Positions 12,531 to 55,598 of a stretch of DNA of 64,000 nt are shown here, one piece after another. The notes beneath the pieces are model-generated. The model worked only from the letters and a program-made list of their open reading frames with translations. It was not told where the DNA came from and made no database searches. Where the stretch lies: the NCBI GenBank assembly GCA_035516255.1, contig DATJAL010000001.1, forward strand, positions 62,001-126,000, read 5' to 3'. The position numbers were made by a program, and so were the translations under genes. The number at the start of each line of letters is the position of its first letter. Positions within the stretch are counted from its first letter, which is position 1. This stretch comes from Chitinivibrionales bacterium (GTDB lineage: Bacteria > Fibrobacterota > Chitinivibrionia > Chitinivibrionales > FEN-1185).

Positions 12531-14501
12531 TTAGAAAACTCCGTTGAGAGAAATATGGATGTCCCAAAATTTATCATGAATATCAAAGACCCTCGTGAAA
12601 GCGGCGTTGAACGCGAGCCGCCGGTCGAGCCGGTATGCAAGCGTGAGAAACGGCGAAACCCGGCTGCCGGCGTTGAAGGTAAGGGCATATTCCCGCGTCA
12701 GGGTGTTGAATTCACGTACGTCAATGTACTCGTACGAACAGCCCGCGCTCCCGGACCAGACGTCAAGCAGCTTTACCGCCGCAGACAGCTTGACTCCATG
12801 CTCCCATGATTTGTCCATGATGGCGTAATATTCTTTGTACGCGGCCGCCTCTTCGGGCGTTTTGAACGTCGTGGAATCGAGGTATTGCCTGCCGTTCCAG
12901 GTGCCGAAGTCCCAATAGGTCTCCTTCCACTCCGTCTTGAGCGTCAGCCACGGGACCACGGCAACGTCGAACAAGGCGAGCGAGGTCCATTGCCTCGAAT
13001 ACGGCGGCGGCTTTCCAATTTTCGTTTCCGGAAACGTGTAGTCGGTTCTTTTGACGTCGGCGCTCATTGCTTCCGATAGGGTGCATCGCTGGCACACCGT
13101 GAAATCTAGCGTGCCGCCGACGCGCAAAAACCAGTCCACCGTGTTGTTGGCGCTCATTTCCTTCCGGATATAACTGGTAATGTTTTTCGAATATTCCAGA
13201 AAAAGCACCGTCTTGCCCCATGACGCCGGTATCGGCACCAAGGAGAATTTCTGCCGGTTGACGATGATGTCGTTGTCAAGCGGCGGATCTGACCTGATGG
13301 TGTCACCGTTTTCGACCAGAAAATTCGGGTAGTCCTTGGAATAGCGCGAGATGTCGGACGTGTATTCGGCGCCCATGCCGTTTTTTAAATATTTCGACAC
13401 GGAATTAATCAGGCCGAAGCGGTAAGCGCGGTAATCATCAAGACTGGCCGTCAGGCTGGCAAGCGGCGATTGGCCGGAATATTTATCCTCGCGCTCCCAG
13501 TCGATGGAAAAACCTCCCTTGTACGAGACAAAAAACTGCGAGTCTGTGGCAAGCAGAAAATTCACAGCATGGTCGGAGTTCTTCCGGCTCCCCCACTCGC
13601 CGGCATAGGACAGCGTGTGCTCGGAATACGAATACACCACACCCGGCTGGAAATAGAACCGCGTTTTTCCCCGGATCCCGGCCATCACCTGGTACGAGCG
13701 TTCGTTCTTTTCCGGGTCGTTGATGAGGTGCGGCTTTCCCTGCGCCTGGCCCAGGAACGCATCTCTTCCGTCTGTCAAGGAGTCGGCGTAATAAGCAAAC
13801 GCGCTGTCGCCGCCGGGCATGCCCAGGTACAACAGCGCCGAACCGGTGCCGGTGGCCAACTTAGAAGTTCCCATCACCCTGCCGTAACTCTTGGCGTTCA
13901 CGATAAGGGGCAGGTACGGAAGCGGCAGCCCCGGATTGCCGAATTCACCTCCGGCATAATATCCCTTGTCCCTGAGTAAAGTGCCGAATTGATTCACGCT
14001 GAGCGCGCCGAGGCTGTCGCTCCACGCCCTTCCGGTTGCGCCGCCGTGGATTTTTACGGGCACGCCGAACGGCGCGATGGAAAGCACGGGACCCACATCG
14101 ACCGAGCCGAGGAGCCCCTGACTCGACGTGCGTTTGTCAAGGATAAGCACCGGCGTCCATTCGAGTCCTACGGTAAGCCGTTGCCAGTGCAGCTTTCTCG
14201 CGTATTCGCCCGACAGATCGTAGGCCTGGTCTTTGGTATCGAACCAGGAATCATTTGTCAATTCGTAATCAACGTTCTGGTTGACCATGCTGTTCGCGGT
14301 ATTGGAAAGCATGCTCAGCGAGTCCCTCACCTTGAAGGTGCGGATATACAGGCTCTGGTCGGAGCCGTACTGGGTGACATTGGAATCGGTTTCCGCAGGC
14401 GGCTGGGGAACGGCGAGCAGAAGCGGCCAATCAACGGCCTGTCCGAACAGCGGCCATGCCCACGTCGCGGCGATCAGAAGAATTCGAATTATATACCGCA
14501 T
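12531..14501 (-). CDS. predicted outer-membrane beta-barrel protein, function unknown
   Basis: A 656-residue exported protein. I place the start at 14501 (MRYIIRILLIAATWAWPLFG, a signal peptide) rather than the upstream ATG at 14525, which would only lengthen the overlap with rsmA. The mature part alternates hydrophobic and polar residues with many aromatic residues and ends in VFDIHDKFWDIHISLNGVF, a terminal strand with C-terminal phenylalanine typical of barrels. No known family is recognised. The start overlaps the end of rsmA by 13 bases, and two lipoprotein genes follow within 2 and 17 bp, so barrel and lipoproteins may form one outer-membrane complex. Confidence 0.6.
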   Translation of the reverse strand: MRYIIRILLIAATWAWPLFGQAVDWPLLLAVPQPPAETDSNVTQYGSDQSLYIRTFKVRDSLSMLSNTANSMVNQNVDYELTNDSWFDTKDQAYDLSGEYARKLHWQRLTVGLEWTPVLILDKRTSSQGLLGSVDVGPVLSIAPFGVPVKIHGGATGRAWSDSLGALSVNQFGTLLRDKGYYAGGEFGNPGLPLPYLPLIVNAKSYGRVMGTSKLATGTGSALLYLGMPGGDSAFAYYADSLTDGRDAFLGQAQGKPHLINDPEKNERSYQVMAGIRGKTRFYFQPGVVYSYSEHTLSYAGEWGSRKNSDHAVNFLLATDSQFFVSYKGGFSIDWEREDKYSGQSPLASLTASLDDYRAYRFGLINSVSKYLKNGMGAEYTSDISRYSKDYPNFLVENGDTIRSDPPLDNDIIVNRQKFSLVPIPASWGKTVLFLEYSKNITSYIRKEMSANNTVDWFLRVGGTLDFTVCQRCTLSEAMSADVKRTDYTFPETKIGKPPPYSRQWTSLALFDVAVVPWLTLKTEWKETYWDFGTWNGRQYLDSTTFKTPEEAAAYKEYYAIMDKSWEHGVKLSAAVKLLDVWSGSAGCSYEYIDVREFNTLTREYALTFNAGSRVSPFLTLAYRLDRRLAFNAAFTRVFDIHDKFWDIHISLNGVF

Positions 14502-15271
14502 GTTTTTTTGTACAATTCCAGCCATTGGTAGGGAGAAAGGTCTTCGGCGCGCGCGCCGTGCCCCATGTTCATTTGTGTCAGGATATCGGTAAAATGCTCC
14601 CTGCCGCCGTCTCGTCCCAGGACGTTCGCGAGCATTTTTCTTCTCATCCTGAAGCCGCTGTCAACAAACTTGAAGAATGCCTCCCATGACTTTCGTGGCA
14701 GCTTGTGCTCCAGGTTCCGTTCCACCACGAGCCTGACCACCGCCGAATCAACCGCGGGCTTTGGAAAAAAAGCGCCCGGCGGCACGGTAAAAAGAATTTC
14801 TGGCGCGCCGAAAAACTGGCAGAATACCGACAGAAATCCCATCTGTTTTGAATGGGGCTTTGCCGCGATCCTCTGCGCCACTTCGCGCTGCACCATAAAC
14901 GTAAACGACAGGATGTCTTCCCCGTAAGAAAGCGTCTTTTTTATGATCATCGCGCCGATGGAATACGGAAGGTTCCCCACCACGTGCAGGGGAAATCCCG
15001 CCGCTGCAAAATCAAACGCGAGCGCGTCGCAACGGTGAAGCGTCCATGTTCCAGGCCCGAGTTCTTCAGCGAGACCGGCGACCAGGTCAGCGTCGACTTC
15101 CACGCAGTGAAAAAAAGGATACAGGGTTTTGAGGTGAACGCTCAGAGCGCCCTTGCCGGGGCCTATCTCAAGAACATTTTCTCCCCGAGAGGCGCCAACG
15201 CTTCTGGCGATTCGCTCCGCGTATGATACCGCGGTAAGAAAATGTTGTCCCAGGTGCTTTTTGGGTCCCAT
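14489..15271 (-). CDS. rsmA: 16S rRNA dimethyladenosine transferase (A1518/A1519)
   Basis: RsmA/KsgA dimethylates two adjacent adenines in helix 45 of 16S rRNA during 30S maturation. The N-terminal KKHLGQHFL, the SAM-binding VLEIGPGKGALSVHL, and the NLPYSIG catalytic motif (N-L/I-P-Y) are all present, and the 260-residue length is normal. It is the first gene of a minus-strand series whose other members encode envelope proteins, an unusual pairing that is probably only positional. Its last 13 bases overlap the barrel gene. Confidence 0.95.
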   Translation of the reverse strand: MGPKKHLGQHFLTAVSYAERIARSVGASRGENVLEIGPGKGALSVHLKTLYPFFHCVEVDADLVAGLAEELGPGTWTLHRCDALAFDFAAAGFPLHVVGNLPYSIGAMIIKKTLSYGEDILSFTFMVQREVAQRIAAKPHSKQMGFLSVFCQFFGAPEILFTVPPGAFFPKPAVDSAVVRLVVERNLEHKLPRKSWEAFFKFVDSGFRMRRKMLANVLGRDGGREHFTDILTQMNMGHGARAEDLSPYQWLELYKKTCGI

Positions 15272-15820: not shown

Positions 15821-17467
15821 TTAAAAATACAGCCCACCGTAAACCTGAATTAACGATTTTCCCGAAAAATCATAATCGTATTTGACCGCTGCGCGGAACA
15901 CGCCGAGCTGATCGAACTTCCAAAAGGCGCCGATGCGGGAAATCGTTTGGGTGCCTGCTCCCAGAAAATGCTTGATCGGCGAATCGGCATCCGGCTTTGG
16001 AGGATCCTGGAACACGTCACGGATATTGCCCCCGCGGACCGACGAATTGGTCCGCATATTGGTAAAGGTGAGACCGGCGGAGTTTTTAAGCGAGACTCTG
16101 CTTTCACATGATAGAAATAGAAGGTCAGAATTCGGCCCCAGCGGAGCGCCGAGGCAGACGTTGAAGTTGTCGTAGCGGGCGGCACCGCCGAAGAAATGGG
16201 TATAGACCCAGGGTTCGACCCTGCAGTATTCCGCGGTAGCGGTCAAATCGTGCGACAGCAGGCTCGTGAAATACTGGGCGCCGACGTCGAACGCCCATTT
16301 ATTCCCCCAGTCGTCCGAAAGAATGGTCCACGGTGTGGTGAAATCATCAATAAAAATCTCGCAATACCAGCGGAAATCGTCGGGCCACGACAAGTTGAAG
16401 TCAAAGGACAGAGCCTTGTTGTCCCGATCTCCGAGGTAATGCTCCATAAAGGCATAAGGTACAAACGGAATCATATACGCAATTTCCCAGGTCCGGGTAA
16501 CACCGTAGTACTCCGACCGGAGCGCATTGGCGGAATCCGGAGCGGTATGCGGCTCGTTGGTGGTGCTTCCGTTGATGACCACCTCGGTGAGCGCAGCGGT
16601 AAACCGGTTTTTAAACAACGGCACCTGTATTCGGTGTGTGTAAAAATACTTCGGCATGTCCTTGTCGCTTTTCAATTGCCCAAAGGCCTGAATATATTCC
16701 ATGAAGCCGAACGAGAGCTGGCCGCGCAGATACGTTTCGGGCGGGGCGTCCCCGGAGAACGTGAGCGGGCTTGCCAGCGCGGGTCCCTGCTTGATTTTAT
16801 CAACCGCCACGTCGAGGCGGAACGGCGAACCGATATAGACGATACCGCCGCGCAGCAAATCGGACGAGCGCGCGTGGCTGGAATCGGCCCTTGAATACAG
16901 ATTGTAGGGCAGGCCATTGTAGGGCTGATAATCGGATTGATGGTACATGGTGTCTGAACGATAGTCCGTCCACACGTCCATTCCCGAATAAAAGGAGACC
17001 GGACCAAGGCCCGCCTGCAGGGACGGGCTGGCGGTACCGCGCACATAGCCGGCGTCTTTAGCGCCGAAGCTCCCGGCGTTGGTGTCGGCAAGAACGAGCC
17101 GCACGCCGACCTGCGCATCATGTTTCTTGTTTTTCCAATGCAAAAGCGCATTGTCGGGGGAAATTCGCTTCCGTAATTCGCGGATGTCAGCCTTCTCGGC
17201 ATCGGAAAGCCGGACGGAAAGCGAGTCTGCCTTTGAAAGAAACGAAAGCACATCGCACACCGTCATCGGCTGAGTGAAAAATGATGCGGGGAGCGGGAGG
17301 GCATACCGGGTCGCCAGACGGTACATCACGGCATCAACGGCAGGATCAACGGACAATGCGGGACATATTTCGGCGTGCACCTGCGAGCAAAAAAGAAAAG
17401 CGGCGCTGGCCAACGCGGCGACGAAGCCTTTTTTCATATACGATGAAAATAATTCAATGAGGCGCAT
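15821..17467 (-). CDS. Wzi-like outer-membrane beta-barrel (capsule-assembly family)
   Basis: About 548 residues. A signal peptide (MKKGFVAALASAAFLFCSQVHA, which could also be the true start at 17437) is followed by a short helical domain (about 45-110) and a long barrel region with many aromatic girdle residues, closing in VYGGLYF. Segments such as EHYLGDRDNKALSFDF and FRWYCEIFIDDF resemble the Wzi/capsule-assembly barrel family, whose members bind surface polysaccharide at the outer membrane. The family call is by feel of the motifs, so treat it as likely, not certain. The gene converges on the small exported protein, 7 bp away. I took the ATG at 17467 because a GGTGAG-like site lies just before it. 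Confidence 0.55.
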   Translation of the reverse strand: MRLIELFSSYMKKGFVAALASAAFLFCSQVHAEICPALSVDPAVDAVMYRLATRYALPLPASFFTQPMTVCDVLSFLSKADSLSVRLSDAEKADIRELRKRISPDNALLHWKNKKHDAQVGVRLVLADTNAGSFGAKDAGYVRGTASPSLQAGLGPVSFYSGMDVWTDYRSDTMYHQSDYQPYNGLPYNLYSRADSSHARSSDLLRGGIVYIGSPFRLDVAVDKIKQGPALASPLTFSGDAPPETYLRGQLSFGFMEYIQAFGQLKSDKDMPKYFYTHRIQVPLFKNRFTAALTEVVINGSTTNEPHTAPDSANALRSEYYGVTRTWEIAYMIPFVPYAFMEHYLGDRDNKALSFDFNLSWPDDFRWYCEIFIDDFTTPWTILSDDWGNKWAFDVGAQYFTSLLSHDLTATAEYCRVEPWVYTHFFGGAARYDNFNVCLGAPLGPNSDLLFLSCESRVSLKNSAGLTFTNMRTNSSVRGGNIRDVFQDPPKPDADSPIKHFLGAGTQTISRIGAFWKFDQLGVFRAAVKYDYDFSGKSLIQVYGGLYF

Positions 17468-17522
17468 GTTTCTCACCGCTTGTCCAAAAAGACTTCACTT
17501 TCCATATACCCCGAGCGTTGCA

Positions 17523-18536
17523 TCATTTGGAATACTTTTTTTGAATTTCCACTATAAATTTAAGGTGTTTTTTAACATAGGGAATCTGCGAATACGGTTC
17601 CGGCACCGGGCGGGCAAGCGCTTTTTTGCATACGGCGAGACACTCGTTTCTGCCGCCGAGATTGTCGTAGCTCGATGCCATGATCTGGTATCCTGAAAGT
17701 AAATCGGACCAGTTTACCGGAATCCGGTTTTCAGAACTCGCGACCAGTTTTTTGGCCCAGCCGATGGCGTCGGGCCACAGGTGTTTCCATAAGGCAATCC
17801 GCGCCTTGAGCCGGAGAAAAATGGTGTTTGAGGGCAGCTCTGCGAGTACCGTGGACGCTACCGAGTCGGCGACGTCGTACTGGTTCCTTTCGAGCAGCAT
17901 CCAGCACAGCGAGTTTTTTGCGACGTAGGAATACGGGAAAGCGGCCTTCGTTGACAGCCACACCTGATCGAGCCCCTCTTTTCTCCGGTCGCCGAAAAAA
18001 GGAAGCCATTTGAGGTGCTGGCTGATGTAATAATTAAAAATTCCTAGACCCAGGTACGCAGGATAGAAATCCGGGTCGCTTTTTATGACCCGTTTGAAAA
18101 CGCCCAGCGAGTTCATTCCGTACCGGACCGCCGAAGGCCAGTTTCCGACCTTTGCCTGGATGATGCTTATGCCGCCCTGTAGGTTGCCGACATAAAAAAG
18201 GCACGACAGTGAATCGCGCCCTGTCTTGCCGGGCAGGTCTTTATTCAAGGTCTGGATCGCGGCGCACGCTTTTTTAAAAAAAGAATCGACCTCAAGGTTA
18301 TAGGATTCGTAATCGAGTATCCTGGTTTGTATCGAAGCGACAACGAGGTAAGACGCATCGGCGTTGTCAGGATCCATGGAAAGAAGAAGATTTGAAAAAT
18401 ATTCGGATTTGTCGTAGCGCTGGTGAACCAGGTAGAATTTTGCGGAATCTAGGAAGTTTGCCGATGAGTCCTGCTGGCAAGAAGCGCTCAAATAAAAAAT
18501 ATAGAGCGGATAAAAAACAATGGGAAAGCGCTTCAT
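17523..18536 (-). CDS. TPR-containing lipoprotein
   Basis: The ATG at 18536 gives a lipoprotein signal MKRFPIVFYPLYIFYLSASCQ (lipobox LSASC). The 337-residue mature chain reads as helix pairs of the TPR type (for example DSAKFYLVHQRYDKSEYFSN and YPAYLGLGIFNYYISQHL), so it is probably a periplasmic scaffold. The segment around YLGLGIFNYYISQ resembles TPR proteins that sit beside exported enzymes in FCB bacteria, but no precise match is known to me. It is 55 bp upstream of the Wzi-like gene on the same strand and may be cotranscribed with it. Confidence 0.7.
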   Translation of the reverse strand: MKRFPIVFYPLYIFYLSASCQQDSSANFLDSAKFYLVHQRYDKSEYFSNLLLSMDPDNADASYLVVASIQTRILDYESYNLEVDSFFKKACAAIQTLNKDLPGKTGRDSLSCLFYVGNLQGGISIIQAKVGNWPSAVRYGMNSLGVFKRVIKSDPDFYPAYLGLGIFNYYISQHLKWLPFFGDRRKEGLDQVWLSTKAAFPYSYVAKNSLCWMLLERNQYDVADSVASTVLAELPSNTIFLRLKARIALWKHLWPDAIGWAKKLVASSENRIPVNWSDLLSGYQIMASSYDNLGGRNECLAVCKKALARPVPEPYSQIPYVKKHLKFIVEIQKKYSK

Positions 18537-18872
18537 GCAAAATCCAAGAATTTTAAACCGACAAATTATGAAAAAAAAACAAAAAACACTTTTAAAAGCG
18601 CGAAAAAGCATTTACCTTTTAAATATACAACCGAATCATCGCTTGGGGTGTTTTCTGATGTAAAATCATGGCATGATTGATAAAAAAATGGCAATCATTA
18701 ATAATTATTTTTTTTTTGCAGTTACAGAACTATATTTATTACATACTAATTTTCGTGATGGTACTTCTATCAAATTTTCATGTTGTTGAAATAGCTGGCA
18801 AAGTGCCATTAAACCGATAAAATACGGGAATCATCCTTTGACCCCCACACTTAAATGAAAAGGAACTCCCCT
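18537..18872. other. AT-rich divergent intergenic region
   Basis: This 336-bp spacer separates the TPR lipoprotein (minus) from the PorV-like barrel gene (plus). It is strongly AT-rich with poly-A/T runs and holds a short inverted repeat at 18664-18678. Promoters for both genes are expected here, but I cannot assign hexamers with confidence. No ORF or RNA gene is visible. Confidence 0.5.
18664..18678. promoter_or_regulatory. inverted repeat, possible operator
   Basis: AATCAT and ATGATT flank GGC in the divergent spacer before the barrel/TPR gene. The symmetry suits a dimeric regulator, but no regulator gene is adjacent and the match may be chance in AT-rich DNA. Confidence 0.25.
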
Positions 18873-21242
18873 ATGGGAATGAAAGACTCGTCGTCACATC
18901 GGATCAAAGCAGCAATTTTTCTTCTTTCCACCATCTCTTGTGTTTTTTCCGTGTTTGCAGACGGATTGCCCGGCGAATACCTCATTACGCAGCGTTGGCG
19001 CGACCTGTTTTCTCGTTATTCGCCCTCCACCAATCCCGCTTTCATAACCGAAGCAAATTACATTGACCTTCGCGCATGCCAGGGATTTGTGTTGGACGGA
19101 TGGTCTCAGCTTACGGAACTCGGCGCTACTTTTCCCGTGGGATTGTACGAATCGTGGGGTGTTTCCTACTTCACCGAAGGCGCGGGCGATATTTCGGCAA
19201 ACGGATGGGACCAGGTGAACGGCGTCGTGGTTGATTCGGGAAAGGTCTCAAACCGGAACAATCTGCTCATGGCCACCTACGCCAACAATATCTGGGGCGG
19301 GCTCAGCATCGGCGTGAACCTGGGACTTTCGATGAACACGAACTTCGCGCATACCATGGCCGACTGGCTTTATAACCTGAGCGGCGACGTGGGGCTCACC
19401 TACCGGCTCGCGATGCACCCGGTGTACGGCGAGCATATCATCGGCATTTCGTTCCAAAACATTTTAGAACCGATCCTCGATAATTTACATTTGCCATCTA
19501 ACATGAGCGTTGCGAGTTATACAAACAATATCAAATTCTCATGGCTTGCGTATTTTCTTGAGAAACAGATCGAGGCAGGGCTTGACATAAGCACGAAAAA
19601 TCTTTACGAGGCCCTCGCTAACGGTTCACCACCGAAATTAATTAACGGTACCGATACGGTGACGAGTAAAAACGTTATCGAATACGACTACAACTTCCGC
19701 TTGGGCGGCTGGCTCATGCGCATGCTCAACGTTTATTTCCTCATGGGAAACATCCGGCAGTCCAACGAATATTACGGGTTCGCCATAGGCGTCAACTTTC
19801 CACACTTTAACGAGGGAAGGGACCTGCAGTTCCTGTACCAGTTCATCGGCATGACCCAGGAGGACCAGGTGTCAACCCATTCGGTGTATATCCGCGGCGA
19901 TGTCGGAATGCACCGAGAAGAAATGTACGCCCGGCGCATGGCGCGCGCGCTCGACCTCGCTCCCAACGAGCTGTACAACAGGGCCTGCAAGCTGTATTAC
20001 GAAGGCAAATACTGGGACGCCTTTTTCCTGTTCAGCCAGATACTGGTCCAGTTCCCCAACTTCTTCAAAAACGACTGGGTGCAGTACTACCGCGGTGCGT
20101 GTCTGGAGAAGCTTGACATGAGGGAGCTCTCGGCGCAGAATTACCGCGACGCGAAAAAGGACTACCCCAAGAGCTCGATCATCCCCTATGCGGACCTCGG
20201 GCTCATGCGTATCGCTTACCGCGACAACAACACCGCCGGCGTGAGCGAGCAGTTCTCATTGCTCAATTCTAACGCGGTCCCGGACTCGCTTAAATATCAC
20301 GCGTATTATCTCATGGCCGAACAGGACATGCGGGACAAGAACTATCAGCCCGGCATTCAGCTCTTCACGGCCATCCCCGAAACGCACCCCGAGTATCCGT
20401 TTGCCCAGCACTCGGCAGCGGTTTCGTATGTCCTCACTTACAACATGGAAGACGCGCTCAACGCGCTCGGCAACGCCATCGAGGCAAAGGCGCAGACCAA
20501 CGAACAGCATGAAATCGTCAATCGTTCGTACCTGTTTCTCGGCTACATGTTTTACGAACAACTGGCGCTTTCCAAGGCGATCACCGCATTGCGCATGGTC
20601 CCTAAGCAGAGCTATTATTATGAGGATGCGCTCCTGGGAATGTGCTGGACCGCACTCCGCGCCCGGCAGTGGAACGACTGTATCACCAACGGCCAGGCGC
20701 TCCAGAAGCTGTCGGCCAAGCCGTCGCTCCAGTGCGAGGGCAGCCTCATCGAGGCATACGCACACCTGATGCAGAAGAATTACGACGCCGCTCTCTCGGT
20801 GCTTTCGGCGGCGTCACAGAAGGCGGCTGCGCTCAAGGCGCCGCCGGCCGACACGCTCGAAGCCGAGCAGGTGAAATACCGCGTGAACCGAAAGACCTAC
20901 GAGGTGCTCGCGTTCGACGTGAACAAGCTTTCGCTCGAGCTTCCCTCCTCCACCGTCCTGCACCAGACCGACAGTCTGCGCAAGGTCCAGACCGAGGACA
21001 AGGACAAACTTGACAAATTCGAGGTCTTTGCCGACGAGTTCTACCGATCCACTTTCTTCTCGCGCAACATCGCCGATATCAAGAACGACATCGACTACGC
21101 GCTCGCCATAGTGCAGAAAATATCGCACCAGACCGACAAGACCGATACGCAGCAGAAGATGGAGGAGAAGCAAAAGGAACTCGACCAGGAAATCCAGAAA
21201 CTCAAACAGCAGATGGAGAATGGTCCCGAAAAGAAGAAATAA
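18873..21242 (+). CDS. PorV/FadL-like outer-membrane barrel fused to TPR domain
   Basis: The ATG at 18873 follows an AAGGA site; the ATG six codons upstream (18855) has none. The 789-residue product has a signal peptide, then a barrel-like region (about 30-340) that begins with an NPAF-type segment (YSPSTNPAFITEANYIDL) and GVSYFTEGAGDISANGWDQ, as in PorV/PorQ/UPF0164 proteins. From about 360 onward there are ten or so TPR-like helix pairs (ELYNRACKLYYEGKYWDAFF and similar), and a charged coiled-coil tail ends at EKKK. PorV-type proteins shuttle or anchor type IX-secretion cargo in Bacteroidota. A fusion to a long periplasmic TPR domain suggests docking of other envelope proteins. Followed by a terminator. 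Confidence 0.65.
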   Translation: MGMKDSSSHRIKAAIFLLSTISCVFSVFADGLPGEYLITQRWRDLFSRYSPSTNPAFITEANYIDLRACQGFVLDGWSQLTELGATFPVGLYESWGVSYFTEGAGDISANGWDQVNGVVVDSGKVSNRNNLLMATYANNIWGGLSIGVNLGLSMNTNFAHTMADWLYNLSGDVGLTYRLAMHPVYGEHIIGISFQNILEPILDNLHLPSNMSVASYTNNIKFSWLAYFLEKQIEAGLDISTKNLYEALANGSPPKLINGTDTVTSKNVIEYDYNFRLGGWLMRMLNVYFLMGNIRQSNEYYGFAIGVNFPHFNEGRDLQFLYQFIGMTQEDQVSTHSVYIRGDVGMHREEMYARRMARALDLAPNELYNRACKLYYEGKYWDAFFLFSQILVQFPNFFKNDWVQYYRGACLEKLDMRELSAQNYRDAKKDYPKSSIIPYADLGLMRIAYRDNNTAGVSEQFSLLNSNAVPDSLKYHAYYLMAEQDMRDKNYQPGIQLFTAIPETHPEYPFAQHSAAVSYVLTYNMEDALNALGNAIEAKAQTNEQHEIVNRSYLFLGYMFYEQLALSKAITALRMVPKQSYYYEDALLGMCWTALRARQWNDCITNGQALQKLSAKPSLQCEGSLIEAYAHLMQKNYDAALSVLSAASQKAAALKAPPADTLEAEQVKYRVNRKTYEVLAFDVNKLSLELPSSTVLHQTDSLRKVQTEDKDKLDKFEVFADEFYRSTFFSRNIADIKNDIDYALAIVQKISHQTDKTDTQQKMEEKQKELDQEIQKLKQQMENGPEKKK

Positions 21243-32805: not shown

Positions 32806-34140
32806 ATGGTGGGATGTCATTTCGGACGCTTCTTTCAGGCAACCGTTGCGGGCGGCTCGTATCAGGAAGGGCTGACCGCCGTGGTGCAAGGCGTTCCGCC
32901 CGGACTTCTCCTTTCCGAAGAGGAAATCTACGCGGACCTTCTTCTGCGCAAGCCCGGCGCGGACGAGCTGTCGTCGCCGCGCAAGGAACCTGATCTGCCC
33001 ATCATCTTTACAGGCGTGAATCCCGCCGACACCATTGAGAACGCGGGAAACAAAAACCATACCAACGGAACGCCCGTTACCGTGCTCATTCCCAACCTCG
33101 ACCGGCATTTTGTCCATGTCAAGCAGTATCAGGACACCAACCGCACGCCGCGTCCGGGCCATGCGTCGTATGCCTCCTTCATCAAATACGGTCCGGACGA
33201 CGACGCGGTGGGCGCCGGCATTTTTTCCGGCCGTTACACCGCGACCATTGTTGCCGCGGGCAGCATCGCCAAAAAGGTGCTGGCGAAATGCGGCATAAAG
33301 ATATTCGCATATGTCAAAGAAGCCGCCGGCGTCCGCTGCCCCGATCTCGACATCGCGACCATCGATCGCCGCACGAACTCATACAAGAAAATGCGTCGCG
33401 ATTTCGACCCGTTTTACCAGGAGGTGTATCGCAAGCGGCGCATTACGCCCGACATGCGCTTTCTGGAAAAAGCCGCCGTGTTTGCCGAGATAGAAAACGA
33501 AATCGACGCGATACGCGAGCGCGGGCGCGTTGCCGAGCCGGGCGAGGTGCGCAAAACCTACGACGCACACCCGGTCATCAACTGTCCCGACCTCGATGCG
33601 GCGCAGGCCATGGTCGACGCCGTCAGCAAAATCACCGCAAATGGCGATTCAAGCGGCGGCGTGGTTGAAATCGTGGCGACCGGCCTGCCCGTGGGGCTCG
33701 GCGAGCCGGTGTTCGGCAAGCTCGACGCTGAGCTCGGGAAAATGCTCGGCATCGGCGCGGTCAAGGGCGTCGAGGTCGGCGCGGGGTTCGGCGTAAAGGA
33801 CATGACCGGCATCCAGAGCAACGACCAGATGCACTCGGAAAAAGGGAAGGTCGTTTTCGACACCAACCAGGCAGGCGGCGTCACGGGCGGCCTTGCCAAC
33901 GGCGCGCCGCTCGTGGTGCGGCTCGCGGTCAAGCCAACGCCCACGATCGCAAAGCAGCAGCACACCATCGACAAATATACCCTCGAGAACAAGGAGCTTG
34001 CCGCGATAACCAGGCGCGACCCGACCATTGTGGCCCGCGTGTGGCCGGTGGCGGAAAATTACACGGCGATGGTGTTGCTTGACAATTTGCTGATGCATTA
34101 CGGCTATCAGAAATTGCGGGAAATAATTGACAATAAATAG
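32806..34140 (+). CDS. chorismate-synthase-family protein with altered active site
   Basis: The fold is clear: SEEEIYADLLLRKPG, SPRKEPDLPIIFTGV, RPGHASYASFIKYG with His119, AAGSIAKKVL, VVEIVATGLPVGLGEPVFGKLDAELG, KGVEVGAGFG and VVRLAVKPTPTIAKQQ. AroC makes chorismate from EPSP using reduced FMN. However, the catalytic GESHG near the N-terminus has become GGSYQEG (residues 16-22), so the first invariant histidine is Tyr19 plus a two-residue insertion. GRSSARET has become GIFSGRYTAT, and GRHDP has become TRRDP. The 444 residues exceed the usual 360-400, with inserts around 70-85 and 185-230. It may be a diverged AroC or a relative with another substrate. ATG at 32806 has AAGGA upstream. Confidence 0.85.
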   Translation: MVGCHFGRFFQATVAGGSYQEGLTAVVQGVPPGLLLSEEEIYADLLLRKPGADELSSPRKEPDLPIIFTGVNPADTIENAGNKNHTNGTPVTVLIPNLDRHFVHVKQYQDTNRTPRPGHASYASFIKYGPDDDAVGAGIFSGRYTATIVAAGSIAKKVLAKCGIKIFAYVKEAAGVRCPDLDIATIDRRTNSYKKMRRDFDPFYQEVYRKRRITPDMRFLEKAAVFAEIENEIDAIRERGRVAEPGEVRKTYDAHPVINCPDLDAAQAMVDAVSKITANGDSSGGVVEIVATGLPVGLGEPVFGKLDAELGKMLGIGAVKGVEVGAGFGVKDMTGIQSNDQMHSEKGKVVFDTNQAGGVTGGLANGAPLVVRLAVKPTPTIAKQQHTIDKYTLENKELAAITRRDPTIVARVWPVAENYTAMVLLDNLLMHYGYQKLREIIDNK

Positions 34141-34217: not shown

Positions 34218-35723
34218 ATGAAATATCTTTTCTCGATGTATTCGATCCTGCTTATCACGCTTTCCGCCGGTGCTTTCGATATCAAAGTGCCCGTCCACTA
34301 CGACACGCTCCAAAACGGACTTAAAATCATCGTGGTCCCCGATTCCAACGTCGCGGTCGTCTCGTGCAGGCTCTATTATTTCGTGGGGTCCATGTACGAG
34401 CAGTTCAGCAGGTCGGGCCTGTCCCACATGTACGAGCACATGATGTTCAAGGGAACGCGGCGGCTGAATACAAAGAATTTTGCCAAGGAATCGGTGTGGC
34501 TTGCGAAAATAGATTCGGTCGATAAAATCATCTACGCCCTGAAGAACCGGGGAATACCCGATACCTCGGCCGAGCGGACGAGCTTGCGGAGGGAAATCGT
34601 CGGGTACATGGACAAAGAACGTGAATACGTCAAAAAAGATGAGATATGGGAATTATATATGGGCGCCGGCGGCACGCATCTGAACGCGTGGACCGCGGAT
34701 GACATGACCGGCTACATCGTAACGCTTCCCAAAAACAAGGTGGAACTGTTTTACTGGATAGAATCCGACCGCATGGCCAACCCCGTGTTCAGGGAATTCT
34801 ACAGCGAGCGCGAGGTGGTGCTCGAGGAACGGCGGATGCGCTATGAAAACCAGCCGGCCAACCGTTTTGATGAATATCTCAATGCTTTGTTCTATATGGC
34901 CCACCCGTACCGGCTTCCCACCATCGGCTGGAAATCGGACATCCAGAACTACACGATCCAGGATCTTGCCAACCACGTCAAACGGTTCTATACGCCCGAC
35001 AACGCTTTGATCGTGCTCGTCGGAAACATCGACCCGGGTAAGGCGGTTTCCGATATCAGGAGATATTTCGGCGGCATTCCGCGTGCCGCGGTGCCCAAAC
35101 AGGAAGTTGTCACCCGAGAACCGCAGCCCATCGGCGAAACGAGATTCACCGTGCGCGACGAGGCTGAACCGATGATCGACATCCTGTTTCACACCCCCGG
35201 CTACAGTAATGACGATCTCTATAAACTTGACATAGTGGAATCAATTTTCTCGGGCCGCAGCGGACGCCTCTACGACCGGCTGGTCAACCGCGAGGAGCTC
35301 TGCACCAATGCCGAGGCCAGCAATGCGTTCAGGCTCGACAACGGATACTTCGAGATCACGGCGACCCTTAAAAGAGGAGTCGATCCTTTAAAAGTTGAAC
35401 GCATTATCAGGGAGGAAGTGGGCACTTTGGTCAAAAAGCCCCCCTCGCCCCGCGAGATGGAAAGAATTAAAAACTCAATACGGATGAATTTTGTGTGGAA
35501 CCTCAAAAGTCTTGAAGGGCTGTCCGACCGGCTCGCATGGTTCCAGCGGTTGGGCTCATGGAAAGACCTTCTTACCTATCCCGACAAAATCGCGGCGGTA
35601 AAATCGGAAGATGTGCCTGCGATCGTTGAAAAATATTTTGATTTTGACAAGGCCACTATCGGGCTTCTGTTGGAGAAAAGCGACAACGATGCAAAGAAAC
35701 AAAAAGACAAAGCGACAAAGTAA
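34218..35723 (+). CDS. M16-family zinc peptidase, active subunit
   Basis: A signal peptide (first 20 residues) precedes a 501-residue M16 (insulinase/MPP-like) protein. The inverted zinc motif HMYEH is at residues 70-74 (H70, E73, H74), and the distal glutamate is in EREVVLEERR (about 199-204). Family members are periplasmic or exported proteases of small unfolded peptides. The C-terminal domain has VNREELCTNAEA where a partner subunit would normally contribute substrate-binding R and Y. The next gene encodes an M16 protein without the zinc motif, so the two probably form an obligate heterodimer. An expected ribosome site is weak. Confidence 0.9.
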   Translation: MKYLFSMYSILLITLSAGAFDIKVPVHYDTLQNGLKIIVVPDSNVAVVSCRLYYFVGSMYEQFSRSGLSHMYEHMMFKGTRRLNTKNFAKESVWLAKIDSVDKIIYALKNRGIPDTSAERTSLRREIVGYMDKEREYVKKDEIWELYMGAGGTHLNAWTADDMTGYIVTLPKNKVELFYWIESDRMANPVFREFYSEREVVLEERRMRYENQPANRFDEYLNALFYMAHPYRLPTIGWKSDIQNYTIQDLANHVKRFYTPDNALIVLVGNIDPGKAVSDIRRYFGGIPRAAVPKQEVVTREPQPIGETRFTVRDEAEPMIDILFHTPGYSNDDLYKLDIVESIFSGRSGRLYDRLVNREELCTNAEASNAFRLDNGYFEITATLKRGVDPLKVERIIREEVGTLVKKPPSPREMERIKNSIRMNFVWNLKSLEGLSDRLAWFQRLGSWKDLLTYPDKIAAVKSEDVPAIVEKYFDFDKATIGLLLEKSDNDAKKQKDKATK

Positions 35724-35745
35724 AAAGAGAGAAACCGTAAACAGT

Positions 35746-37206
35746 ATGGAAGATTTCACTAAACTCCTGATTTTCGCAGTGTCCACATTTCTTCTGGTGT
35801 CAAACCTGTCTGCCCAGGTCCCTGATTCTCCAAGGAAAATCGTCTACCCGGCGCTCGACTGGAAAGTGCCGCTCGGTACGCCGTACCGGCAAGTGCTCAG
35901 TAATGGGCTTGTCGCATATATCGCCGAGGAACACTCGCTTCCCTATTTCAAGCTTTCGGGTTATGTGCGGTACGGGTCCATTTGCGATCCGGCGGGCAAG
36001 GAAGGCATCTCATCGCTGATGGCGACCCTCATGCGCACCGGCGGGACGCAAACCTACCAATCGGACACGCTCGACTATCTCATCGACCAGTATGCGCTCA
36101 GGATTTCCGTCTCCGTCTCTGAAACGCAGGTGAATTTTTCCTGCGCAAGCCTTTCGGAATACGCGGACACCTGCCTGTTCATGCTTTCGCAGATCCTGTT
36201 CCATCCGTCGTTTGAGGACAAAAAAATAAAAAAACAGACATCCCTTTTCCTCGAATCCATTGCGCACCGGTTTGACAATCCCGACCCGATTCTGGACGCC
36301 GCGTACGAAAAGGCAATGTATAATGACGGACAGAACAGCAGGCTTCCGACCGCGGCAAGCGTGGCGCGGATCAGCAAAAAGGACATTGTCGCCCTGCACA
36401 AAAACATCTTCAAAACCGAAAATATGATCATCGCGGTATCGGGGGATTTTTCCAAAAAAGCAATGGAACAGAAACTGTGCGCGCTGTTTCCGAAGGCCGG
36501 AGCCGCGGCCGTGGATTCTCTTTTTCCGCACATCAGCGTCAAGCCGACGGCGAAATCCGTTATCGTCAACAAAGCCATCACGCAGAGTTACATCCGCATG
36601 GGGCTTCCGCTGTTCAAGCGGCCGCATGACGATTACTATGCGGTGCAGGTGCTCAACCTCATTCTCGGCGGCGAAGGATTCACCTCGCGCCTCGGCAGCA
36701 AGGTGCGCTCGGACGAGGGACTCGCCTATGTCGTCTACTCGAGCGCGGGCTCGAATTATTTCTACCCCTCAACCTTTTTCATAGAATTCCACACAAAAAA
36801 CGAGACGGCGGCCAAGGCCATGGCGCTTTCATACAATGAGGTCACCCGCATACGGACGTCGGGCGTCACTGCCGAAGAACTTTCACACGCAAAGAAAGTG
36901 CTCATTGATGCGTTGCCCTCGATGTTCCGAACGGCCGATGACATCGTTGACAATTACGCAGGCAATGAATACCTTAAACAGCCTCCCGATCATTTTACCG
37001 CATACCCCGACAAAATAAACGCGCTTACCCAGGCGGATATCGCGGCGGCGGCAAAGAAGTATCTTGACCCTGCGGCAATCACGTATACCGTCGTGGGCGA
37101 TACCGCGGTGATTTTTAAAAACGACACGATATCGGGCTTTTCTTTCCGTTCGCAGAAGCCGATTGTTGCGGTGAATAATCCGGATTCGCTCCCGGAAATG
37201 AAATGA
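35746..37206 (+). CDS. M16-family protein, inactive partner subunit
   Basis: The ATG at 35746 starts a 486-residue exported protein (signal ending near LSAQ). The M16 fold is evident from LSNGLVAYIAEEHSLPYFKLSGYVRYGS and GGEGFTSRLGSKVRSDEGLAYVVYS. The HxxEH motif is missing: the position reads GISSLMATLM. The R...Y pair in KVRSDEGLAY, which binds substrate in active/inactive M16 pairs, is kept here and lost in the upstream partner. It begins 22 bp after the first M16 gene. Confidence 0.88.
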   Translation: MEDFTKLLIFAVSTFLLVSNLSAQVPDSPRKIVYPALDWKVPLGTPYRQVLSNGLVAYIAEEHSLPYFKLSGYVRYGSICDPAGKEGISSLMATLMRTGGTQTYQSDTLDYLIDQYALRISVSVSETQVNFSCASLSEYADTCLFMLSQILFHPSFEDKKIKKQTSLFLESIAHRFDNPDPILDAAYEKAMYNDGQNSRLPTAASVARISKKDIVALHKNIFKTENMIIAVSGDFSKKAMEQKLCALFPKAGAAAVDSLFPHISVKPTAKSVIVNKAITQSYIRMGLPLFKRPHDDYYAVQVLNLILGGEGFTSRLGSKVRSDEGLAYVVYSSAGSNYFYPSTFFIEFHTKNETAAKAMALSYNEVTRIRTSGVTAEELSHAKKVLIDALPSMFRTADDIVDNYAGNEYLKQPPDHFTAYPDKINALTQADIAAAAKKYLDPAAITYTVVGDTAVIFKNDTISGFSFRSQKPIVAVNNPDSLPEMK

Positions 37207-52808: not shown

Positions 52809-55598
52809 CTACTGCGCCCCACCTTTTTTCCGGATCTTATACGCGTTTTCCACCATTTCCCTGAGCTGCTTGAAATCGTCGCCCTTCATGTAATGCTTCA
52901 GCGCCCCTTCCACGCGCTTGAACTCCGCATAGGCTGCTTCGATTTTGTTGTCCCTCATGAAGCTGTTGATCTGCTCGATGTCTTCTTCTTCGCGCGAAAC
53001 CGGCGCCTTTGTGGCCGGTGCGGCAGCGGCCGCGGATCCCGGTTTGGGCTGCGCATCCATGGCGGCCTGCGCAATGCTCTGCTCCAGGGTGTTAAAGACC
53101 TGAACATCAACATATTGGGCAATGAACTTTCTGTTGTCCTTGAATTTCGCCAGAGCAGCCGCGTTCTGGTTCTGGTCCATGAGATTATAAAGTTCCATCA
53201 CCTCGTCCTGCGCCTTTTTCTGGTTGTCCCTCATGGACTGCAGGTAGTCTCTCACCGCCTTGGCCGTTTCCTGCTGCTTGGCAAGCGATTGCTTGTTCAG
53301 CTCTTCCTCGCCCTGGTGTGAAATGTAGGTGCCGGCTGCCGGCGGGGGCGCCGCGTTCGCCAGTTCCTGCTGTTTCTGTTTTTCGGCTTCCTGCTTGGCC
53401 TTCTCCTGCTGAGCGAGGAGCTGCTTCTGGCGCTCCTGCTGCTTCGCAAGCGCATCAAGGCTGTCTTTGCGCGCTTTTTCCTGTTGCGCAAGCAACTGCC
53501 GCTGCTTTGCGGCCGCCTCGATGCTGTCTTTGCGCGCCTTCTCCTGCTGGGCGGCAAGCTGACGCTGGCGTTCCTGCTCCTGCTTCCGTGCAAGCGCGTC
53601 AAGGCTGTCTTTCCGCGCCTTTTCCTGCTGCGCAAGCAGCTGCCGCTTCTGTTCCTGTTCCTGCCGTTTTGCCAATGCGTCAAGGCTGTCTTTGCGGACT
53701 TTTTCCTGCTGTGCGAGCTGCCGTTGCCGCTCCTCTTCGGCCTTCGCCTGCAGTTCCTGCTGGCGCTTGCGTTCTGCCTCGGCTTTTGCCTGCTGTTCCC
53801 GCTGCTTTGCCGCCGCCTCGATGCTGTCTTTGCGCGCCTTTTCCTGCTGAGCGGCCAGTTGCTGGTTGCGGTGGTCTTCTTCTTTTTTAGCAAGCTTGTC
53901 TTTTTCTTTCTGTATCAGCTCGTCATGATGCTTTCTGTCCGCTTCAAGCCTCGCCTTCAACCCCTCCTGGAACTTTGCCAGCGCTTCCAGGCTGTCTTTG
54001 CGCGATTTTTCCTGCTGCGTGGCCGCCTGCTGCTGCCGCTCCGCTTCGGTTTTGGCCTGATGTTCCTGTTCCTCTTGCTGATGCTTTCGTTCTTCATCAG
54101 CCTTTGCCACGGTCTCCTGACGCTTCGCCGCCGCGTCGATGCTGTCTTGACGCACTTTCGAAAGCGCCTCATGCTGCTGACGCTGCCGTTCTTCTTCGGC
54201 GCGGGCCTGCCGATCTTTTTCTTTCTGCTGCTCGCTCATCTCGCGGCGCCGTTCTTCATCGGCCTTTGCCTGGGCCTCCCGCCGTTTTGCCAAAGCGTCA
54301 AGGCTGTCTTTGCGCGCCTTTTCTTTTTGCGCGGCCAGCTGTTCCTGCTGACGCTTCCGTTCTTCCTCGGCCCTTGCCAGCGCCTCACGCTTTTTTGCTA
54401 TCGCATCAAGGCTGTCGGCGCGGGCCTTTTCCCGCTGCGCCGCAAGAAGCTCCTGCTGATGCCGGCGCTCCTCCTCGGCCTTTGCCGCGGCCGCCTGACG
54501 CTTCGCAGTCGCGTCGATGCTGTCTTGACGGGCCTTTTCCTTTTGCGCCAAAATCAGCGCCTGCTGCTTGTTGTATGCATCGATACTGTCTTTGCGCGCC
54601 TTCTCTTTCTGCGCGGCCAGCTGTTCCTGACGCTTGTTGTATGCGTCAATGCTGTCCTTGCGCGTCTTCTCCCGCTGGGCCTCGAGCAGTTCCTGCTGGC
54701 GCTTCCGTTCTTCCTCGGCCTTTGCCTGGGCCTCCTCCTTTTTCCGCTGCGCCTCGATGCTGTCCTTGTGCGCCTTTTCCTGCTGCGCCAGAAGCAGTTT
54801 CTGCCGTTCCTCCTCTGCCTTACGCTTTTTTTCTTCCTCGGCCTTTAATTTCGCCTGGCGCTCCTCTTCCAGCTTCTTTTCCTTGAGTTCCTTTTCCATG
54901 CGCGCGCGCTCGGCCTTTTCCTTCTCCTCCATTTCCTTTCGTGCTTTTGCATCTTGTACGGCCTTCACGCTGTCCTCGCGCGCCTTGATCATGCGCTGCG
55001 CGGTACGCACGATGTAGGGGTCGGTTGTGGGATCGGGCTGCTGCCCGGCTTCGAGTGCCTTGAGCGTTTTCGCCAGCGCCTCGCGTTCCTGGGCCTGTTT
55101 GATGGCCGGCGCTTCGGTAAGAACGGTCTGCTCCACCGTTTCGATTTTTTTTACCGAAACACCGTAGGCCCGCAAATCGGCCTGTATGAACTCGAGCGCC
55201 TGGTCAGGGCCCTCGGTATGCAGGATTTCAACGGTATGTTTTACCAAAGAGTCTTCCTTGGCGGTAAGCGTTGCGATGACCTTGTCTATTTTCGTCCGTG
55301 TGGCCACCACTTGCGTTTGGGAAAGGTCGCCCTTTATCTGTTTGAATGTGTACTCGGCCAGGTCGATGGATCCCCTTGCGTTCTGCAACTTGATTTGTGA
55401 AATAAAGTCAATTGCGTCATTGCAATCCTTGTCTATTTTCTCTTTCTCTTTGGCGATGTCCTTTTTGAAAAAATCCCTTGATTCGTCGGCAGACGCCGCG
55501 GATGCGACGAACGCGGACATGATCATCGCCAGCGCCAAAATGCAGACCGGTAGATGGAATGAATTCTTACGCTTGATTGCAATGGCAGGGGTCATCAT
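52809..55598 (-). CDS. exported coiled-coil protein with 13 K-x-x-KDS-type repeats
   Basis: 929 residues with a signal peptide (MSAFVASAASA). The N-terminal third has a helical domain with ITAKEDSLVKH-like segments. From about residue 230 to 720 there are 13 copies of an RKDS(I/L)(D/E)A unit embedded in Gln/Glu/Lys/Arg-rich helices, for example AQQEKARKDSIEAAAKQ. The C-terminal about 150 residues form two similar helical modules (MDQNQNAAALAKFKDN and MRDNKIEAAYAEFKRV). It resembles TolA-like rods but has no TonB domain. It is last in an apparent operon with a kinase and a barrel, so phosphorylation of the serine in the repeats is a testable idea, not shown. Confidence 0.7.
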   Translation of the reverse strand: MMTPAIAIKRKNSFHLPVCILALAMIMSAFVASAASADESRDFFKKDIAKEKEKIDKDCNDAIDFISQIKLQNARGSIDLAEYTFKQIKGDLSQTQVVATRTKIDKVIATLTAKEDSLVKHTVEILHTEGPDQALEFIQADLRAYGVSVKKIETVEQTVLTEAPAIKQAQEREALAKTLKALEAGQQPDPTTDPYIVRTAQRMIKAREDSVKAVQDAKARKEMEEKEKAERARMEKELKEKKLEEERQAKLKAEEEKKRKAEEERQKLLLAQQEKAHKDSIEAQRKKEEAQAKAEEERKRQQELLEAQREKTRKDSIDAYNKRQEQLAAQKEKARKDSIDAYNKQQALILAQKEKARQDSIDATAKRQAAAAKAEEERRHQQELLAAQREKARADSLDAIAKKREALARAEEERKRQQEQLAAQKEKARKDSLDALAKRREAQAKADEERRREMSEQQKEKDRQARAEEERQRQQHEALSKVRQDSIDAAAKRQETVAKADEERKHQQEEQEHQAKTEAERQQQAATQQEKSRKDSLEALAKFQEGLKARLEADRKHHDELIQKEKDKLAKKEEDHRNQQLAAQQEKARKDSIEAAAKQREQQAKAEAERKRQQELQAKAEEERQRQLAQQEKVRKDSLDALAKRQEQEQKRQLLAQQEKARKDSLDALARKQEQERQRQLAAQQEKARKDSIEAAAKQRQLLAQQEKARKDSLDALAKQQERQKQLLAQQEKAKQEAEKQKQQELANAAPPPAAGTYISHQGEEELNKQSLAKQQETAKAVRDYLQSMRDNQKKAQDEVMELYNLMDQNQNAAALAKFKDNRKFIAQYVDVQVFNTLEQSIAQAAMDAQPKPGSAAAAAPATKAPVSREEEDIEQINSFMRDNKIEAAYAEFKRVEGALKHYMKGDDFKQLREMVENAYKIRKKGGAQ

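Follow-up and report, generated by a model that had tools for sequence, protein, structure and literature searches.

Tyrosine in place of the catalytic His10: a derived branch of chorismate synthase that is probably the working enzyme of its hosts

The 64,000-nucleotide stretch of DNA analysed here (the window) carries a gene for a homologue of chorismate synthase (AroC). Chorismate is the precursor of the aromatic amino acids, and the enzyme that makes it is a drug target and a classic puzzle, being a flavin enzyme that works without net redox change. The gene is accompanied by purH and by genes for a signal peptidase, a sigma-70-family factor and two M16 peptidases; as the preliminary description of this DNA had stated, we found no other shikimate gene among the open reading frames (ORFs) scanned in the window. 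The features of the gene are given below, with active-site residues numbered as in the Streptococcus pneumoniae enzyme (PDB 1QXO), whose His10 has its counterpart in Tyr19 of the window protein.

32806–34140, + strand: Tyr10-type (long-form) chorismate synthase gene, ATG start, 444 amino acids, the sole PF01264 gene of the genome
32851–32865, + strand: GGSYQ at the GESHG site, residues 16–20; Tyr19 for His10 and Gly17 for Glu8
33022–33054, + strand: insertion 1, approximately residues 73–83 (..ADTIENAGNKN..), found in none of the 27 His-type sequences compared
33151–33168, + strand: RPGHAS, residues 116–121; R107 and H110 kept, Ser121 for the invariant D112
33217–33240, + strand: GIFSGRYT, residues 138–145; S132 and R134 retained between altered flanking residues
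33352–33549, + strand: insertion 2, approximately residues 183–248 (..MRRDFDPFYQEVY..), boundaries approximate
34009–34023, + strand: TRRDP, residues 402–406; R337 and D339 kept, Arg at position 338

The product of the ORF matched the whole of the PF01264 profile (positions 1–327) with 319 bits (cut-off 27) and TIGR00033 with 320 bits (cut-off 212); against PRK05382, the tighter NCBI equivalog, it scored 321.5 bits, half a bit above the cut-off of 321. When we searched the PDB with an AlphaFold model of the protein (mean pLDDT 78.5, with values below 50 in several active-site loops; pTM 0.85), the significant matches were chorismate synthases only (E values from 1e-21 to 1e-12). Because profiles and structures agree, the AroC fold is not in doubt, and the homology recognised in the preliminary description is confirmed. 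The ORF showed no frame damage, and we reject the reading of the gene as a pseudogene. Comparison with the nearest relative gave a dN/dS of 0.056, which indicates strong purifying selection. Sequencing error and contamination were ruled out by this value and by 58 relatives with the same residues. The preliminary description had advised looking for a canonical aroC outside the window; in the genome, which measures 4.28 Mb and is 96.6% complete, this search revealed no second PF01264 gene.

We aligned 35 Tyr-type sequences with 27 diverse His-type AroC sequences, seven of which were PDB entries transcribed from printed alignments (1QXO, 1Q1L, 5z9a, 4lj2, 1sq1, 1um0 and 7rca), the remainder coming from plasmid, Planctomycetota, Spirochaetota and Fibrobacterota records. 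At columns conserved in at least 90% of the His-type sequences, the window protein differed by E8G, H10Y, D112S and one glycine beside an insertion. The residues of the EPSP and FMN core were kept: R39, R107, H110, S132, R134, K311, R337 and D339, common to the window protein and to the AroC (EC 4.2.3.5) of S. pneumoniae and Pseudomonas aeruginosa (5z9a), as well as K254. In the window protein, H119 and D405 correspond to H110 and D339, and Arg48, Arg116, Arg143, Arg403 and Lys376 are likewise retained. Across all sequences compared, residue 10 was tyrosine in 59/59 long and 17/17 short Tyr-type sequences (the short family is described below) and histidine in 56/56 others. Position 112 was Asp in 56/56 His-type sequences and never Asp in the Tyr forms, which had Ser (long) or Glu or Asn (short). 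Arginine occupied position 338 in all Tyr-type sequences with this region present and in 0/56 His-type sequences. We also considered His101 and His104 as stand-ins for His10 and do not favour them: although neither varies among long-form sequences, the short-form sequence L201 has nothing equivalent to His101, and the alignment of this loop is uncertain.

The preliminary description had read three AroC motifs as rewritten, and each reading needs adjustment. The change from GESHG to GGSYQEG is real in its exchange of His for Tyr, but it involves no insertion, since GGSYQ aligns residue for residue (16–20 against 7–11 of 1QXO). The replacement of GRSSARET by GIFSGRYT leaves the invariant S132 and R134 in place, and a similar motif, HFSGRLT, occurs naturally in enzymes that keep His10 (that of Collinsella, L180, with related forms in L181, L182 and L209). 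The replacement of GRHDP by TRRDP spares the catalytic R337 and D339, and position 338 is not invariant in ordinary AroC, being Ser in S. pneumoniae (1QXO) and Thr in Aquifex (1Q1L), which are of the Bacilli/Aquifex type. Because position 338 varies and FSGR occurs together with His10, two of the three changes are less radical than they look. The second histidine, in RPGHA, is intact as described, although the replacement of the nearby D112 by Ser had been missed. The extra length (444 residues against 363–388) also proved real, and it comes from the two insertions.

With each species represented by a single genome, our scan yielded 65 loci, from which we aligned 59 full-length sequences, including that of the window. 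The relatives were 68–87% identical to the window protein over 437–444 residues and came from Fibrobacterota, Planctomycetota (mostly Phycisphaerae), Lentisphaerae (including an assembly of Victivallis vadensis), Spirochaetota, Omnitrophota, Auribacterota, Ratteibacteria and Raymondbacteria. All 59 contained G[GA]SYQ and RPGHAS, and 58/59 contained FSGRYT; TRRD and the two insertions are also characteristic of this long form, in which the flavin-side residues H119 and D405 are invariant. Identity to the window protein was about 73% whatever the phylum, whereas for EPSP synthase, compared between these same pairs of genomes, it was about 44%, suggesting that the long form probably moved between phyla by horizontal transfer. 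Within the window's own order, the corresponding values were about 70–75% for the Tyr-type AroC and about 56–62% for EPSP synthase.

An even draw of Phycisphaerae genomes contained L201, a Tyr-type AroC of ordinary length with the motifs GESYG, RPGHAN and AITRRD, and a wider search of 347 genomes brought this short family to 17 genes, all from Phycisphaerae, in which the other 16 (within L220–L236) were 63–70% identical to L201. Like the long form, the short family has Tyr10, a residue other than Asp at 112, and ITRRD; it differs in keeping Glu8 and R[AS]SGRE and in being free of the long-form insertions. GESYG, GR[AS]SGRE and TRRDI were present in 17/17, and RPG or RPA was followed by HAE in 16/17 and by HAN in 1/17. 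Most members (L222–L236) have an insertion of about ten residues directly after GESYG, beside the active-site tyrosine (for example, GESYGWHATAEDAGYGG). Owing to this insertion, residue 10 is misplaced by forced-length alignment, and we read it directly.

Phylogenetic analysis joined the two Tyr-type families. In the last tree, which included 30 His-type rows, the long and short forms together occupied one side of a branch with support of 100/99, and each formed one group (100/100 for the long form and 100/97 for the short form). The proposal of a novel AroC subclass is thus borne out by a clade supported at 100/100 and a sister clade that is also Tyr type. When the distant Bacilli/Actinobacteria/Aquifex type was included, the long form was nested among His-type sequences, which indicates that tyrosine is the derived state. 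As the Tyr forms make up one clade, the co-occurrence of Tyr10 with a residue other than Asp at 112 counts as one evolutionary association rather than many independent ones. The distribution of residues suggests that Tyr10, the loss of Asp112 and Arg338 came first, followed in the long form by Gly8, Gln11, FSGRYT and the two insertions. A first tree, which carried a long-branch warning, hinted at kinship with the HFSGRLT group of Collinsella and Fusobacterium; a later tree, built without the most divergent rows, with L201 added and with L180 and L209 present, did not uphold it. That His-type group (L180, L181 from Subdoligranulum, L182 from Fusobacterium, and L209), in which FSGR[LI] replaces SSARE, shares FSGR with the Tyr type but keeps His10 and Asp112 and is not its sister in the later tree; its own long branches make its place unsure.

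If the Tyr type makes chorismate, it should stand where the pathway has a gap. The window's genome encodes an EPSP synthase (376.9 bits, cut-off 287), a chorismate-using PF00425 enzyme of the anthranilate synthase type (324 bits) and a prephenate dehydratase (204 bits). These genes indicate that the cell produces EPSP and consumes chorismate, and the window protein is the only known candidate for the step between. Among the 50 genomes behind the relatives, 38 had a single PF01264 gene, of the long Tyr type, and 12 had two; in two of the latter (G172 and G215) both copies appeared, by score and length, to be Tyr type. A PF00425 enzyme was found in all 38 Tyr-only genomes and an EPSP synthase above the cut-off in 30, with fragments in two more; the other six, which are draft assemblies, had no convincing EPSP synthase. 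One Tyr-only genome (L028/G192) is a 5.06-Mb record labelled a chromosome, in which aroA directly precedes the Tyr-type gene. All seven genomes checked for the short family had no AroC besides it. Aromatic amino acid prototrophy has been predicted for single gut genomes of Lentisphaerae and Planctomycetes (PMC9026213), which agrees with this assignment without testing it.

We next turn to genomes that had not been selected for a Tyr-type gene, in which AroC types were distinguished by match score and length together with the length of the open frame. Motifs were read in the genes whose DNA was fetched, and the remaining 'other' genes were assumed to be His type. Of 101 Phycisphaerae genomes, 18 had the long form only, four had it with another AroC, 76 had another AroC only (short Tyr type in seven) and three had none (Fisher p = 2e-13 for exclusion between the long form and other AroC; p = 2e-16 for both Tyr families against the rest). 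In the class of the Lentisphaerae genome G185 (n = 99), the long form was alone in six genomes and accompanied by fragments of another AroC in one; 87 had other AroC only and five had none (p = 3e-6). For Fibrobacterota, whose classes were set by E value and number of matches and are therefore approximate, the counts were 13 long only, about eight both, 136 other and 11 none (p = 3e-8). These p values are overstated, since related genomes were treated as independent, yet the direction was the same in three lineages. The best reading is that the long form displaced ordinary AroC in its hosts. About 20 genomes across the surveyed sets had both types, and in these a second role of the Tyr type is possible.

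Gene order points to the same pathway step. An EPSP synthase gene lay directly upstream of the long-form gene, on the same strand and within 200 bases, at 18 loci; at four more (L013, L031, L041 and L062) it lay beyond one fused shikimate kinase/His-type AroC (aroK–aroC) gene, and at seven it was farther upstream. These loci belong to Planctomycetota, Omnitrophota or Ratteibacteria; in Fibrobacterota (the window included), Spirochaetota and Lentisphaerae the long-form gene stands apart from EPSP synthase, and in Fibrobacterota it has no shikimate gene next to it. Short-form genes had EPSP synthase upstream at at least 10 of 17 loci. In the loci with larger gaps between aroA and the Tyr-type gene we found no remnants of a His-type aroC, the ORFs there being unrelated. 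The fused Phycisphaerae proteins (L013:4068–5858, L031:2917–4596 and L041:4141–5820) are of the same family as the Tyr type but have an N-terminal shikimate kinase domain (PF01202), GESHG, RPGHAD and GRHDP, and are without the insertions; their genes sit between those for EPSP synthase and the Tyr type, so that both AroC types share one cluster.

Two other functions must be weighed against these data. The preliminary description had offered an enzyme for another EPSP-like substrate, in which case the chorismate of these cells would come from elsewhere. The changed residues do lie at the substrate side, and some genomes have both types, even in one operon (L013, L031, L041 and L062); but the Tyr type is the sole AroC in most carriers, alongside EPSP synthase and chorismate users, it and other AroC are nearly mutually exclusive, linkage to aroA is frequent, and the EPSP and FMN core is kept in full. 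We regard this reading as improbable. Still less probable, and in our view very remote, is an inactive or regulatory Tyr type that partners an ordinary AroC: tandem pairs in some Phycisphaerae would suit such a role, but most carriers have no ordinary AroC, and the catalytic Asp and the second His are invariant.

We conclude, with a probability of about 0.8, that the window gene encodes the cell's working chorismate synthase, belonging to a derived Tyr10 branch in which the phosphate side of the active site has been rebuilt. That the protein makes chorismate is strongly indicated by its conservation, its occurrence as the only AroC, the genes for the steps before and after, gene linkage and the clade. 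It would thus convert EPSP to chorismate and phosphate with reduced FMN as a required cofactor, in a branch where the change of His10 to Tyr was accompanied by those at 112 and 338.

In the known enzyme, H110 protonates reduced FMN at N1 and D339 primes flavin N5, C3–O cleavage precedes C6–H loss, and in Neurospora crassa activity fell 300–600 fold on changing the Asp equivalent to D339 and about 20-fold on changing H110 to Ala (PMC3509576). His10, which corresponds to His17 in N. crassa and His11 in Mycobacterium tuberculosis, has been described as present in all known species and was proposed to protonate the leaving phosphate (PMC2386126). For the flavin part, we find no support for the different FMN mechanism that had been suggested: H110 and D339 are invariant, and only the phosphate-side histidine and its surroundings have changed. 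Reduced FMN would be bound and activated as in ordinary AroC, with H119 near flavin N1 and D405 priming N5. Whether a Tyr-type enzyme also has the NAD(P)H:FMN reductase activity of bifunctional AroC is not predictable from sequence or structure (PMC2386126).

On the phosphate side, Tyr19, or an arginine cluster enlarged by Arg404, may take over from His10 the task of stabilising or protonating the phosphate as it leaves; the simplest reading is an unchanged reaction in an arginine-rich pocket that Arg404 would make more positive, with Tyr19 as a hydrogen-bond or proton donor. As a hypothesis, Tyr19 as the proton donor has about even odds, arginine or water being the alternatives. A chorismate synthase without any side-chain acid, in which Tyr19 is structural only and solvent and the arginines, Arg404 included, are enough, is a tentative alternative that deserves serious attention. 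Arginines close to the phosphate remain candidate proton donors according to PMC12697075, and the strict association of Arg338 with the Tyr type would fit; against it, the invariance of Tyr19 in all long and short forms is beyond what a filler residue needs. The sequence cannot separate these two readings. Their joint change suggests that positions 10, 112 and 338 may be in contact and belong to one site. That the branch uses a chemically distinct phosphate-side route, via Tyr or an arginine pair, with 112 as a second, previously unrecognised coupled residue, seems to us a balanced proposition.

Judged from sequence comparison, the Tyr10 branch is most likely a real, widespread and functionally constrained variant of a known enzyme, and a working chorismate synthase. 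Our search of the open literature (subscription papers lay outside it) revealed no description of a Tyr10 AroC, and no homologue with Tyr10 came to light that had been characterised or had its structure solved; the refuting case named in the preliminary description, a place in the tree inside normal AroC among biochemically proven homologues with the same motif changes, did not arise. A natural branch, seemingly the sole chorismate synthase of many bacteria, is thus always without a histidine held to be universal and catalytic, so that the role of His10 can be tested directly by a Tyr/His swap; it is an experiment already run by nature on how an unusual flavin enzyme works. For annotators, it adds a subclass that lies close to one NCBIfam cut-off and should not be dismissed as inactive.

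We made three further observations. Five long ORFs of the window (12534–14525, 15824–17476, 17526–18611, 18855–21239 and 52812–55598) had no Pfam match at 1e-6. Alongside its Tyr-type gene, the Spirochaetes genome G180 encodes a very divergent His-type AroC of 350 residues (L155), with Asn at the position of Arg39 in a forced alignment. The two adjacent M16 peptidase genes that follow aroC in the window (34218–37203) overlap by about 110 bases as called, probably because the second start was called too early.
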